From the IMG/VR virus record IMGVR_UViG_3300031576_000023, positions 21,329 through 85,328 of that record: a DNA stretch of 64,000 nucleotides, one strand, 5' to 3'. Origin of the DNA: a virus. A program made the translations under genes and the position numbers. This document shows positions 21,622 to 52,883 of the stretch, piece by piece. Every line of letters starts with the position of its first letter. Positions within the stretch are counted from its first letter, which is position 1. The notes under the pieces are model-generated. The model was not told where the DNA came from, searched no databases, and saw nothing but the letters and a program-made list of their open reading frames with translations.

Positions 21622-22182
21622 ATGACCAGTTTCGAGGAAACCTGGAGCCTCCTGCCTGGGAACGGCTGGCTCGACCGCGACGAGGCCGAACTGCTATGGA
21701 ACGCCGTCAAGCTCGAAGATGACGTGCTTGAGGCCGGGGTGTACTGGGGCAGGTCGGCCGTGCTGCTGGCGCACCGGCTCGCGGAGGGTTCCGGCAAGTT
21801 CTGGCTCTGCGACCCGTTCATCGACGGCCACCACTTCGACACGCTGGCCGAGGGAGCGGTGGCGTGGCAGTGCGTCCTGGCAACTGTCGAGGACATCCTG
21901 CCGGCGGAGCGGCTCTGCCTCGTGCCGTGCTCCGAGAGCGATCTGCACGTCTTGGCTGCCGGGACCCTGCGGCCGGGCCTGGTTTACCTTGACGCAGACC
22001 ACTCCTACGAGGCGACGAGCGCCGCGCTGGCTAGGTGGTCGCCGCTCGCTGGGGCCGTGGCGGCGCACGACTACGCCGGGACCGGTGGCGGGGCCGAGGT
22101 CAAGCGCGCCGTTGACGAACTGCCTGGCTGGAGGATCAAACAGCGAGCGTCGCGGATGGTCGTGCTTGAAAGACACGCATGA
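21622..22182 (+). CDS. Class I methyltransferase (Methyltransf_24-like)
   Basis: 186 residues. VLEAGVYWGRSAVLLAHRL replaces the classic motif I, and LVYLDADHSYEATSAALARW plus AVAAHDY match the Methyltransf_24 family, which often methylates sugars in polysaccharide clusters. It overlaps gmd by 4 bases. Confidence 0.65.
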   Translation: MTSFEETWSLLPGNGWLDRDEAELLWNAVKLEDDVLEAGVYWGRSAVLLAHRLAEGSGKFWLCDPFIDGHHFDTLAEGAVAWQCVLATVEDILPAERLCLVPCSESDLHVLAAGTLRPGLVYLDADHSYEATSAALARWSPLAGAVAAHDYAGTGGGAEVKRAVDELPGWRIKQRASRMVVLERHA

Positions 22183-23129
22183 GCAAGCGCGCGCTGATCA
22201 CCGGCGTCTCCGGCCAGGACGGCTCGTACCTCGCCGAGTACCTGCTGGGGCTTGAGTACGAGGTCTACGGGCTCGTGCGGCCGCGCGCGTGCGCGACCAA
22301 CCACAACCTCGCGGAATGCCGCAAGCACACGGGCTTCTGCGAGCTGGAAGGAGACCTACTCGACCAGCCGTCTCTGGACGCGGCAGTCCAGGGCGCGCGA
22401 CCGCACGAAGTGTACAACCTCGCCGGCCACACCTTCGTGGGCAGTAGCTGGGACAGCCCGGAGCACGTTTTCCAGGTCAACGCCCTCGGCACGCTGCGAA
22501 TGCTGCAGGCGGTCCAGCGGCACGCGCCGTCCGCGCGGTTCTACCAGGCCAGCACCTCCGAGATGTTTGGAAACCAGCCGGCGCCGCAGAGCGAGGCCAC
22601 GCCGTTCGTGCCGTGCAGCCCCTATGGAATCGCCAAGCTGGCAGCACACTGGTTCACGGTAGAGTTTCGCTCCCGAGGTCTGTGGGCCTGCTGCGGAATC
22701 GCGTTCAACCACGAGTCTGCGCGGCGCGGCGGCCAGTTTGTGACCGGCAAGCTAGCCAGCCACGCGGCGTTCAAGCAGGCCACCAACAGCAGCCAGAAGC
22801 TCCAGGTCGGCAACCTGCACGCCAGGCGGGACTGGGGCCACGCGCGCGACTATGTGCGAGCCATGCACGCGATGATGCAGGCCAATGCGCCCACCGACTA
22901 CGTCATCGGTACGGGAAGGTCGCTCTCCGTCTTGGAGTTCGCGGAACTCGTTGGCCTCGGTACTGACGACCTTGAAGTCACTAGCAAGCACATGCGCCCG
23001 ACCGACATCGCCGAGCTCCGAGCCGACGCCAGCAAGATCAAGGCGGCGGTCGGCTGGTCGCCCAGCGTCGCCGTGGAGCAGCTCGCCGCCGAGATGCTTC
23101 GGCATCACGCCGACTGCTGGAAGCGATGA
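22179..23129 (+). CDS. gmd: GDP-mannose 4,6-dehydratase
   Basis: 316 residues. GVSGQDGSYLAEYL (about 9-22) is the NADP-binding loop specific to GDP-mannose dehydratases; STSEMFG and YGIAK provide the catalytic Thr/Ser, Glu, Tyr and Lys; the NHES sequence and RRDWGHARDYV follow as in the family. It converts GDP-D-mannose to GDP-4-keto-6-deoxy-D-mannose, the precursor of fucose, rhamnose and perosamine. The adjacent DegT-type enzyme suggests perosamine. Confidence 0.85.
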   Translation: MSKRALITGVSGQDGSYLAEYLLGLEYEVYGLVRPRACATNHNLAECRKHTGFCELEGDLLDQPSLDAAVQGARPHEVYNLAGHTFVGSSWDSPEHVFQVNALGTLRMLQAVQRHAPSARFYQASTSEMFGNQPAPQSEATPFVPCSPYGIAKLAAHWFTVEFRSRGLWACCGIAFNHESARRGGQFVTGKLASHAAFKQATNSSQKLQVGNLHARRDWGHARDYVRAMHAMMQANAPTDYVIGTGRSLSVLEFAELVGLGTDDLEVTSKHMRPTDIAELRADASKIKAAVGWSPSVAVEQLAAEMLRHHADCWKR

Positions 23130-30620: not shown

Positions 30621-31520
30621 ATGGCGAAAGCCAAAGAATTCGAGCTGCATCCAGCGGCGGAGATCTTCCCTTTGTTGAAGCACTGCGACCCTGAAGTCTG
30701 GAAAGAATTTCTCGACGACATGCGCGAGAACGGCCAGCAGGAGCCGATCGCGCTCTGTGAGGGGAAGGTGCTGGACGGACGCAACCGCCTGCTTGGCTGT
30801 CAGGCGCTGGGCTTGGAGCCAAAGACAATCAACGTCCGGCCTGCTAGCCCTGTCAAATACGTGATTTCGCGCAACTTGCACCGCCGGCACTTGACCATCG
30901 GGCAATACTCGGGGTGCGCTGCGCGATCTATATCGATGTTCGAGGCGGAAGCGGCGGAGCGCAAAGCGAAAGGCCAGAAAAAAGGCGGGGCAGCCACGGC
31001 GAAAAAGGCTCTAGGCAAACATTTGCCTCAAGCCATTGAGGCTGACGGGACTGTGGCAGACGAAGCTAACGCGAAGCTTGCGGAGGCAGCGACCGGCAAG
31101 GCCGTAGACATGGCTGGCAAAGCGTTTGGCGTGAGCGGCGAGAATGTCCGCAAGGCTGCTGCGGTGATTGGACAAGCGTCTCCGGAAGTCACAAGACTCA
31201 TGGATCATGGCGAAATTACGGTGAACGTTGCTACCAAGCTTGCCGACTTACCGAAGGCCAAACAGGCGGAGGCGGTCGCCCAGATCAAGCGCGGCGAGAA
31301 ACCAAAGGCCCTGAAGATCAAGCGCGCGAAGTCCGGCGGCGTAGCTGTGACGCACAAGGACTTGAGGGAGCAGCTTGGCAAGCTGGCCCGGCTGGTTGAC
31401 GCGCTGGAGAAAAAACACCCTGGCGGGAAGTTCAGTCGCGGGATTCACGACAGGCTCAAGGCGTGCCATGGGCTGGTCGCCGACTGGCAGCGGTCGCCGA
31501 ACTCAGCGCAGAAAGATTGA
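30621..31520 (+). CDS. ParB/Srx-domain protein 2
   Basis: 299 residues, RBS AGGAG. The N-terminal domain EFLDDMRENGQQEPIALCEG and VLDGRNRLLGCQALG is ParB-like with DGRNR. A long helical, Ala/Lys-rich middle and a region resembling an HTH (ITVNVATKLADLPKAKQAEA) follow. Same class as the preceding gene but with different C-terminal parts. Its own promoter suggests separate control. Confidence 0.7.
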   Translation: MAKAKEFELHPAAEIFPLLKHCDPEVWKEFLDDMRENGQQEPIALCEGKVLDGRNRLLGCQALGLEPKTINVRPASPVKYVISRNLHRRHLTIGQYSGCAARSISMFEAEAAERKAKGQKKGGAATAKKALGKHLPQAIEADGTVADEANAKLAEAATGKAVDMAGKAFGVSGENVRKAAAVIGQASPEVTRLMDHGEITVNVATKLADLPKAKQAEAVAQIKRGEKPKALKIKRAKSGGVAVTHKDLREQLGKLARLVDALEKKHPGGKFSRGIHDRLKACHGLVADWQRSPNSAQKD

Positions 31521-45629: not shown

Positions 45630-46496
45630 ATGAACGCTAGCGAGCTAACGTTCGGGATCGAGGTGGAGTGCTACATCTCGCGGGAGAATCTTCAGGCCGC
45701 CGGCTGGGAGGTCGGCGGCTACCACAACGGCCGCGAGATTCCTGATTTTGTGGGGTGGAACGCTCAGCGCGACAGCAGCCTGAACAGCCCCCCCAGCTAC
45801 GAGCTGGCAGGGGTCGAAGTAGTATCTGGGGTTCTGACGGGGGCGGAAGGGCTAGCGGAAGTGCGGCGGATGCTCGCGACCCTCCAGAGGATGGGGGCGA
45901 AAGTGAACCGCACGTGCGGGTTTCACGTGCATGTGGGGTTCGCGGGCCGCTCAGTCCAGGAGCTGCGGCGCTTGGTCTGCTTGGTCGCGAGCCATGAAGA
46001 GGCGTTGTACGCGGTTACCGGGAGTCGCGCCAGGCGCGATTCCTGCTACTGCAAATCGGTGAAGGACGGGGCGATGAATGGTTTTGCTCGCCCCGTGCGC
46101 AGTCACAGAGAGGCGTCTGGATGGTGCGACAGGTTCCGCGTGCTGAACCTCACGAATCTGCTCGGAGACTCGGCCCGCAAGCCGACCGTGGAGTTCCGGG
46201 TGTTCGCGGGGACCACGAACGAGGTCAAGATATTGGGCTATATCCAGCTCTGCCTTGGACTGGTCTCGAAGGCTGTGGCGATGCGGTCGGCGGCGCCGTG
46301 GCATAGTAGACCGGTGCACAATAAGTCGCTTGCCGGTTACGGGCCGGGCCGCACTGCGGTGTCTAAATTGCTGTGGCAACTCGGCTGGCGAGGCGATGCG
46401 GCACACCATGGGGTGCTGGACTTGGCAGGCGTGGCGAAGACGAAGACGGAGTTGTATCGGCTCGCAAAGAAGTACGACAGCGGCAGCGAGGAGTAG
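45630..46496 (+). CDS. Amidoligase-family protein
   Basis: 288 residues. The pattern of the phage/bacterial amidoligase_2 family (glutamine-synthetase-like COOH-NH2 ligases) is clear: TFGIEVECYI, a DSSL motif, ELAGVEVVSGVL, then NRTCGFHVHVG and a late VEFRVFAGT. These enzymes ATP-dependently join carboxyl and amino groups on peptides or small molecules. A class II amidotransferase follows, a known partner. Confidence 0.75.
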   Translation: MNASELTFGIEVECYISRENLQAAGWEVGGYHNGREIPDFVGWNAQRDSSLNSPPSYELAGVEVVSGVLTGAEGLAEVRRMLATLQRMGAKVNRTCGFHVHVGFAGRSVQELRRLVCLVASHEEALYAVTGSRARRDSCYCKSVKDGAMNGFARPVRSHREASGWCDRFRVLNLTNLLGDSARKPTVEFRVFAGTTNEVKILGYIQLCLGLVSKAVAMRSAAPWHSRPVHNKSLAGYGPGRTAVSKLLWQLGWRGDAAHHGVLDLAGVAKTKTELYRLAKKYDSGSEE

Positions 46497-51389: not shown

Positions 51390-52883
51390 ATGCTTACCGA
51401 GGTTTTCACGCGGGCCAAGAAACGGTCTGTCCCGCTAGTGCTGGTTGTAACCCCGGACCCGGCCGCCACGGTCCGAGAGCTGTGCACGACCCTGAACGGG
51501 GACGCCCAGGCTGTCTGCTGGGACCTGGTGCGCGGCCTGCACGAGCCGCCGATCACCTACGGGCTGGCGGACAAGCTGCGCGGCGGCGCGGAGGACGAGA
51601 CGTTGTTTGCGCCGGTAGCATTCGCGCAGGTGATCCGCAAAATGCCTGCGCACGGCGTGGCGTTCGGGTTGCAATTCGACCGCTACCTGCACGGACAGGA
51701 CGCGGCCGGCGTCACTCAAGCAGTTTGGAACCTGCGGGATCAGTTCAAGCAGGACGAGCGGATGCTGGTCATGCTGTGCTCTGACGGGAAGCTGCCGGTC
51801 GAACTCAAAAACGACGTGCTCGTGCTGGACGAACCATTGCCGAACGAAGCGCAGCTCAAAGCGGTCGTGACAAGCTTGTGCAAGGCCGCGAAAAAGGCCA
51901 GCACTACGTTCGCGGCGACGCCTGACGACATTGCCAGGGCTGCCGTGCGCGTCACCGGGCTGTCGCAGTTCGCGGCCGAGCAGGCGGTGGCCATGAGCCT
52001 GCGCGCCGGCGGTATCGACCAGGACGATCTGTGGGCGAGGAAACGGAAGCTCATCGAGGCAACGCCCGGCCTGGCGGTCTACGGCGGCGAGGAGCACTTT
52101 GGCGACCTGCGCGGCGTCGATAACGTCACGGGCTACCTGCGGCGCGTGATCGACGGGAAGCGCAGCCCAAATGTTATCGTCATGGTGGACGAGATCGAGA
52201 AGGCCCTGGCCGGCGCGCACGGCGACACGTCCGGCGTTTCCCAGGGTCAGTTGCAGTGCCTGCTGACGGAGATGCAGGATCAGAGCTATCCAGGCTGTAT
52301 ATTCATCGGGCCGCCTGGCAGCGGCAAGTCGATGGTCTCGAAGGCTGCCGGCAACGAGGCCGGCGTTCCGACGATCCTGTTCGACCTGAACGGGATGAAG
52401 GACTCGCTGGTTGGAGCCAGCGAGCGGAACATGCGCGACGCGCTGAAGGTCGTGCGCGCCGTCGGGGACGGCAAGGCGCTTTGGCTGGCGACGTGCAATG
52501 AGATCACCCAGTTGCCGAGCGCGCTGCGCCGGCGGTACACGCTCGGCACGTTCTTTTTCGACCTGCCGACGGGGGCGGAGCGCAAGGCGATCTGGGAGCT
52601 GTACCTCGGCCGGTACGATCTTGCGAAGGACCAGAGGGCCAAGCGGCCGGATGACGAGGGCTGGACCGGTGCCGAGATCAAGCAGTGCTGCGACAACGCC
52701 TGGGCGCTCGGTGTGACGCTTAAAGAGTCGGCCGGGTACGTGGTGCCGATCGTCAAGAGCGCGGCTACGGAGATCAGGCGCCTGCGGCAGGAGGCCAGCG
52801 GCCGTTTTCTCTCGGCGAGCCAGCCTGGCGTCTATCAGTTCCGCGAGAACGAGCAGGACGGGCAACGTGGCATTACGATGTAG
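51390..52883 (+). CDS. Ycf46-like AAA+ ATPase with permuted motif order
   Basis: 497 residues. Residues about 95-155 (LQFDRYLHG..., VLVLDEPLPNEAQL) match the N-terminal domain of Ycf46-type ATPases. In the ATPase part the Walker B/alpha segment NVIVMVDEIEKALAG (261-275) and DTSGVSQGQLQCLLTEMQ (279-296) comes before Walker A GPPGSGKS (307-314). Then come LVGASERNMRDALKVVRAV, sensor-1-like LWLATCNE (364-371), LRRR (379-382) and FFFDLPTGAERKAIW. In normal AAA+ domains Walker A is first. All catalytic elements appear intact. Function unknown. Confidence 0.75.
   Translation: MLTEVFTRAKKRSVPLVLVVTPDPAATVRELCTTLNGDAQAVCWDLVRGLHEPPITYGLADKLRGGAEDETLFAPVAFAQVIRKMPAHGVAFGLQFDRYLHGQDAAGVTQAVWNLRDQFKQDERMLVMLCSDGKLPVELKNDVLVLDEPLPNEAQLKAVVTSLCKAAKKASTTFAATPDDIARAAVRVTGLSQFAAEQAVAMSLRAGGIDQDDLWARKRKLIEATPGLAVYGGEEHFGDLRGVDNVTGYLRRVIDGKRSPNVIVMVDEIEKALAGAHGDTSGVSQGQLQCLLTEMQDQSYPGCIFIGPPGSGKSMVSKAAGNEAGVPTILFDLNGMKDSLVGASERNMRDALKVVRAVGDGKALWLATCNEITQLPSALRRRYTLGTFFFDLPTGAERKAIWELYLGRYDLAKDQRAKRPDDEGWTGAEIKQCCDNAWALGVTLKESAGYVVPIVKSAATEIRRLRQEASGRFLSASQPGVYQFRENEQDGQRGITM

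Follow-up and report, generated by a model that had tools for sequence, protein, structure and literature searches.

The locus and the order of its blocks

The DNA analysed here (hereafter the window) is a stretch of 64,000 nt from a metagenomic virus record of 85,328 bases (IMGVR_UViG_3300031576_000023), and the gene in question encodes an AAA+ ATPase of the Ycf46 type in which the conserved motifs of the catalytic domain stand in a rearranged order. The window also encodes a tape-measure protein and a helicase, and its source is therefore a tailed phage. An AGGGAG ribosome-binding site lies 5' of the ATPase start codon, and Pfam PF00004 (AAA) matches the protein with 52.7 bits (cut-off 21.2), as two separate stretches. 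As the original prediction had claimed, the translation carries the Walker B sequence VIVMVDEIEKA at residues 262-272, ahead of the Walker A sequence GPPGSGKS at residues 307-314, followed by VGASERNMRDALK at residues 341-353 (its VGASERN part at 341-347), LWLATCNE at 364-371 (sensor 1, ATCN, at 367-370) and the LRRR arginine region at 379-382. An antisense open reading frame (ORF) of 476 amino acids (aa) lies opposite the gene (51435-52865, minus strand) and is most likely a mirror frame of high GC content.

Table 1. Features of the ATPase gene and of the genes downstream of it (window coordinates; iE, independent E-value)
Feature	Coordinates	Strand	Evidence
Permuted Ycf46-type AAA+ ATPase, 497 aa	51390..52883	+	ORF; Pfam AAA E 8e-14; PHROG 8638 E 1.5e-43
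Degenerate AAA N-domain without P-loop, residues 11-225	51420..52064	+	canonical N-domain profile iE 5e-24
Linker and helix α0, residues 226-261, now running into β3	52065..52172	+	model helix 244-255; G242 invariant in 94 permuted proteins
Moved block: β3 (Walker B, VIVMVDEIEK) and helix α3, residues 262-298	52173..52283	+	canonical β3-α3 profile iE 9e-11; model strand 262-266, helix 283-298
Block β1 (Walker A) to α2, residues 302-359	52293..52466	+	canonical β1-α2 profile iE 9e-22
Block β4 (sensor 1), LRRR, β5 and helical lid, residues 363-480	52476..52829	+	canonical β4-end profile iE 4e-19; N370 and R382 in 94/94
Small ORF between ATPase and DUF3150-like gene, 111 aa	52867..53202	+	one homologue, in L006, E 2e-48
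DUF3150-like protein, 298 aa	53196..54092	+	family near ATPase in 98/106 permuted loci; 15/26 members match Pfam DUF3150
DUF1257 (Ycf35)-like protein, 150 aa	54449..54901	+	family in 94/106 permuted loci; 12/18 members match Pfam DUF1257
DUF2997 protein, 65 aa	54947..55144	+	Pfam DUF2997 E 1.1e-10, above cut-off; family in 56/106 permuted loci, 15/15 members match
Small conserved module protein, 81 aa	55141..55386	+	49/106 permuted, 9/41 canonical loci

Ycf46-type ATPases occur in plastids, cyanobacteria, plasmids and phages (PHROG 8638; for example Rhizobium phage L338C_050 and Agrobacterium phage JP1_048). The window protein resembles them in combining a degenerate AAA N-domain, recognised by the canonical N-domain profile, with a catalytic AAA domain, in its GG, DEIEK, GxSE and ATxN motifs, and in having DUF1257, DUF2997 and DUF3150 neighbours. 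However, the order in Ycf46-type proteins is Walker A, GxSE, Walker B and sensor 1, whereas the window protein and its closest relatives have Walker B and its helix first. Our survey set comprises 106 such permuted loci, corresponding to 94 distinct proteins (including Tunturi_3 and two contigs of metagenome-assembled genomes, MAGs), and 41 canonical loci with 37 distinct proteins (including plasmid and phage loci).

To describe the rearrangement in terms of homologous blocks, 15 canonical Ycf46-type relatives were aligned, the alignment was cut into N-domain, β1-α2, β3-α3 and β4-end, and in a first test the profile of each block was run against the full sequences of 26 permuted proteins. In all 26 the order was N-domain, β3-α3, β1-α2, β4-end, with each profile matching once, and the block profiles likewise depart from the canonical motif order in the window protein. 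With the canonical β3-α3 profile, the window protein reaches 32.5 bits and the 106 permuted loci reach at least 15 bits (median 39), whereas none of 1060 shuffled sequences exceeds 5.2 bits. The order of PF00004, which runs β1 (Walker A)-β2-β3 (Walker B)-β4 (sensor 1)-β5, is thus broken in the same way throughout, β3-α3 preceding β1 in 94 of 94 permuted proteins. The same crossing appears when the permuted-family profile is compared with PDB sequences: in p97, profile positions 301-352 match a stretch upstream of the one matched by positions 259-297.

A second, hidden Walker B at the canonical place was considered and rejected. Downstream of the P-loop, none of the permuted proteins has a match resembling β3-α3 (the best scores -0.6 bits), and the α2-β4 gap, usually 3-4 residues in the 94 proteins, leaves no room for one. 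The α3-β1 join is also short, mostly 2-4 residues with a range of 1-7, and joins of this length would allow the strands to be reconnected along one edge of the sheet. These out-of-order profile matches, together with the 94 relatives and the predicted order of strands and helices, bear out the claim that β3 and its helix now precede the P-loop, with the order otherwise unchanged. The term "circularly permuted", under which this was first described, holds for the sub-block β1 to α3 but not for the domain as a whole, because β4, β5 and the lid remain last; the rearrangement is a swap of the adjacent blocks β1-α2 and β3-α3.

Since the window was taken from a metagenomic virus record, one might attribute the order to an assembly error, a frameshift or a chance motif match in a canonical gene. 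We consider this scarcely credible and reject it, as it is refuted by the shuffle control and by the recurrence of the order in 94 distinct proteins, which come from many assemblies, the genome of an isolate phage and a 4.73-Mb contig. The permuted order, being common to about a hundred related phage proteins, is genuine and inherited, although the layout of this fold is normally fixed.

Permuted proteins as one clade

The breadth of the family, which the original prediction had left to a profile search, amounts to 94 distinct permuted relatives from independent assemblies, recovered in scans of viral contigs. A search of these contigs with the single protein returned no relatives and one with a two-sequence alignment returned 33 loci; in one scan for relatives, 80 of the 164 reported were kept. 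Among the permuted proteins, whose mean column identity is 49%, is gp103 of Tunturiibacter phage Tunturi_3, an isolate genome, with 37% identity to the window protein. Searches of two phyla yielded further copies with the same order, and one copy is found inside the 4.73-Mb single contig, about 10 kb from an integrase gene and also near genes for ribonucleotide reductase, primase, helicase and sliding clamp, which makes the region prophage-like.

We found no duplicated, intermediate or other block order among the 149 loci with an ordered match. The apparent exception, L019, has a β3-α3 match that merely falls below the survey cut-off (iE 3e-5 in the block-profile test), and L149 is a match to a truncated contig. 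In an unrooted tree based on the separately aligned blocks, a branch with 100/100 support (1.0 in FastTree) divides permuted from canonical proteins, and the permuted proteins form one clade with a single origin among the sampled relatives; the canonical proteins nearest to it by distance are the L126-L143/L041 group. Judged by its sequence, the window protein belongs to this separate clade and is not an ordinary Ycf46-type member, because it lacks the canonical order and falls beyond that branch. With regard to polarity, which the unrooted tree leaves aside, the canonical order is to our knowledge universal among AAA+ proteins, and from this it follows that it is presumably the ancestral one.

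The swap would be explained most simply by a tandem duplication of the β1 to α3 block, doubling β1-α2-β3-α3, after which the first copy of β1-α2 and the second copy of β3-α3 were lost. Such a sequence of events would give exactly the order that we observe.

Some individual loci deserve separate mention. L161 and L168 come from genomes drawn from two different phyla and are 99.95% identical over 3780 bases that include the permuted ATPase; the bin hence gives no safe host for that phage, and we rejected MAG binning as unreliable evidence of hosts. Genome bin G335 has three diverged permuted ATPase copies on three contigs (L166, L169 and L171). At L028:3126-4557, a permuted ATPase gene lacks the P-loop stretch and its frame breaks right after α3, reflecting either a real deletion or an assembly join.

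Catalytic residues and predicted structure

The catalytic residues have been retained throughout the clade. E268, K313, S/T314, N370 and R382 are conserved in all 94 permuted proteins, and D267 in 89, the remainder having Glu. The Walker A, Walker B, sensor 1 and arginine-finger residues of PF00004 are accordingly all present, as had been foreseen for the key residues from the window protein alone, with R382 as the probable finger. Because this conservation is strict, we infer that the permuted domain binds and hydrolyses ATP. Within the N-domain, a Walker A pattern occurs in one of the 106 permuted loci and in none of the 41 canonical ones. The N-domains of the permuted ATPases L006, L007 and L016 contain an insert resembling a DnaJ-type CxxCxGxG zinc finger, and by eye L023 has a similar one.

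AlphaFold2 models were made for the full window protein with 24 relatives (mean predicted local distance difference test, pLDDT, 89.4; predicted template modelling score, pTM, 0.81) and for residues 226-486 with 93 relatives (pLDDT 94.1, pTM 0.90). The predicted elements follow each other as β3 (262-266), α3 (283-298), β1 (302-306), α1, β2 (328-331), α2 (343-359), β4 (363-369) and β5 (387-389); in the C-domain model, β3 and most of α3 have pLDDT above 90, and the loop between them 75-87. With joins this short and catalytic residues this strictly conserved, β3 would still lie at its usual place beside the P-loop. Subunits of ring ATPases are packed closely, and with the block at a different position in the chain one may ask whether β3-α3 completes the site of the neighbouring subunit by a three-dimensional domain swap instead of its own. 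We regard this as very improbable, given that a single chain is modelled with confidence (the pTM of the C-domain) and that the 1-7 residues joining the block to β1 leave little reach.

In Foldseek searches, the top PDB matches of the full model were the tandem-AAA proteins Rix7, NVL and p97, and BFVD yielded phage proteins that carry the name "ycf46", with TMq reaching 0.70; the C-domain matched AAA domains of FIGL-1, FtsH, katanin and Vps4. A non-AAA fold, the outcome that would have spoken against the original prediction, is thus not what we obtained, the model being confident and its matches being AAA proteins, albeit at modest TM-scores for the C-domain. The window protein has two AAA tiers like CDC48/p97, NVL and Rix7, and its sequence profile matches these proteins out of order, but their strand order is canonical. 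In p97 both tiers carry nucleotide motifs, and CDC48/p97, NVL and Rix7 are not known to be accompanied by the DUF module. There is also a weak similarity, at the level of AAA domains, to IetA of the IetAS anti-phage system (NCBIfam E 2.6e-8; PADLOC E 3.6e-11). We rejected a defence-system reading on this basis, because the score of 33.4 bits compares with an NCBIfam cut-off of 510 bits and reflects general AAA similarity.

Gene neighbourhood and proposed role

The neighbourhood of Ycf46-type genes, DUF1257 together with DUF2997, also accompanies the permuted genes (94 and 56 of the 106 loci, respectively), and a DUF3150 family completes the module. The DUF3150-like and DUF1257-like copies in the window are below the Pfam thresholds, the latter matching weakly (E 0.045), and both are assigned through their families; searches of solved structures with profiles of these two families returned nothing useful. 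Canonical relatives on Candidatus Manganitrophus plasmids are accompanied by the same DUF1257/DUF2997/DUF3150 module, which is also found beside canonical L041 and L126-L143, and parts of it beside the canonical relatives in Rhizobium phages, where replication genes adjoin. The module being common to both groups, the permuted ATPase stands where the canonical one would. A cluster of DUF2997, DUF1257/ycf35 and a ferredoxin gene is also described in cyanobacteria (PMC4284462).

Taken together, we consider it very likely that the window protein is a Ycf46-type AAA+ ATPase of a tailed phage, whose catalytic AAA domain carries one ancestral swap of β1-α2 and β3-α3, and we propose that it acts in remodelling as a ring. 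Such a ring would consist of a non-catalytic AAA tier, formed by the N-domains, and a permuted tier that hydrolyses ATP, and it might remodel protein complexes together with the neighbouring DUF proteins, encoded in an early or replication region of the phage.

Several observations weigh against this reading. The remodelling role, perhaps in replication, is drawn from gene neighbourhood and family analogy, replication being suggested by the surroundings of the prophage copy and of the Rhizobium phage relatives. Pore loop 1 is mostly SLVG and non-aromatic, so any substrate threading is putative. The TM-scores of the C-domain matches are only 0.36-0.57, with root-mean-square deviations of about 9-18 Å; Foldseek aligns in chain order, so that low values are expected for a rearranged protein, though this is no proof, and for the same reason we rejected the TM-score as a test of where β3 is placed. 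Finally, the last Walker A glycine (residue 312), which is Gly in 37 of 37 canonical relatives, is Gly in 43, Ala in 40 and Ser in 11 of the permuted proteins, having changed at least 18 times on the tree, and ATP turnover may be altered in the 51 of 94 that have Ala or Ser.

This last observation would also suit an explanation in which the rearranged domain has lost catalysis or can only bind nucleotide, and serves as a structural or regulatory tier. We think this unlikely, because dead ATPases usually lose the Walker B glutamate, the P-loop lysine, the sensor 1 asparagine and the arginine at position 382, all of which are present in every permuted protein, and because the window protein itself retains the glycine. 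MoxR-type AAA+ proteins can have Ala here, which therefore need not inactivate the enzyme. An active, swapped ATPase remains our preferred interpretation.

When AAA+ ATPases are identified and aligned, their motif order is taken to be constant, and annotation that depends on this order splits such proteins, as in the two partial stretches given by Pfam. Our searches of the literature available outside subscription turned up no AAA+ core that is permuted in nature; where papers found by the AAA+ searches use "permuted", it refers to methylases, a GTPase, the arrangement of subunits or statistics. The circularly permuted GTPases YlqF, RsgA and Nug1 are P-loop NTPases whose motif order is naturally permuted with the site kept. 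They differ from the present family in having a GTPase rather than an AAA+ fold and in that their whole G domain is circularly permuted. For Nug1 the name circularly permuted GTPase is in use (PMC9196750). It is probable, in our judgement, that we describe here for the first time an AAA+ family whose core has been rearranged and is still catalytically active, which arose once in tailed phages, is kept in about a hundred sampled lineages and has become less strict about the final glycine of Walker A. That a large natural clade departs from the order and yet keeps the catalytic residues implies that evolution can rewire how the core strands are connected, and the clade offers a natural test of which links (α2-β3, α3-β4, linker-β1) couple ATP hydrolysis to movement.

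Elsewhere in the window are genes for amidoligase-like (45630-46496) and ParB-like (30621-31520) proteins and for a nucleotide-sugar epimerase (22179-23129). On a Treponema plasmid (L045:2078-6302), a canonical Ycf46-type ATPase gene lies between genes for a 4Fe-4S protein and phage baseplate assembly protein V.
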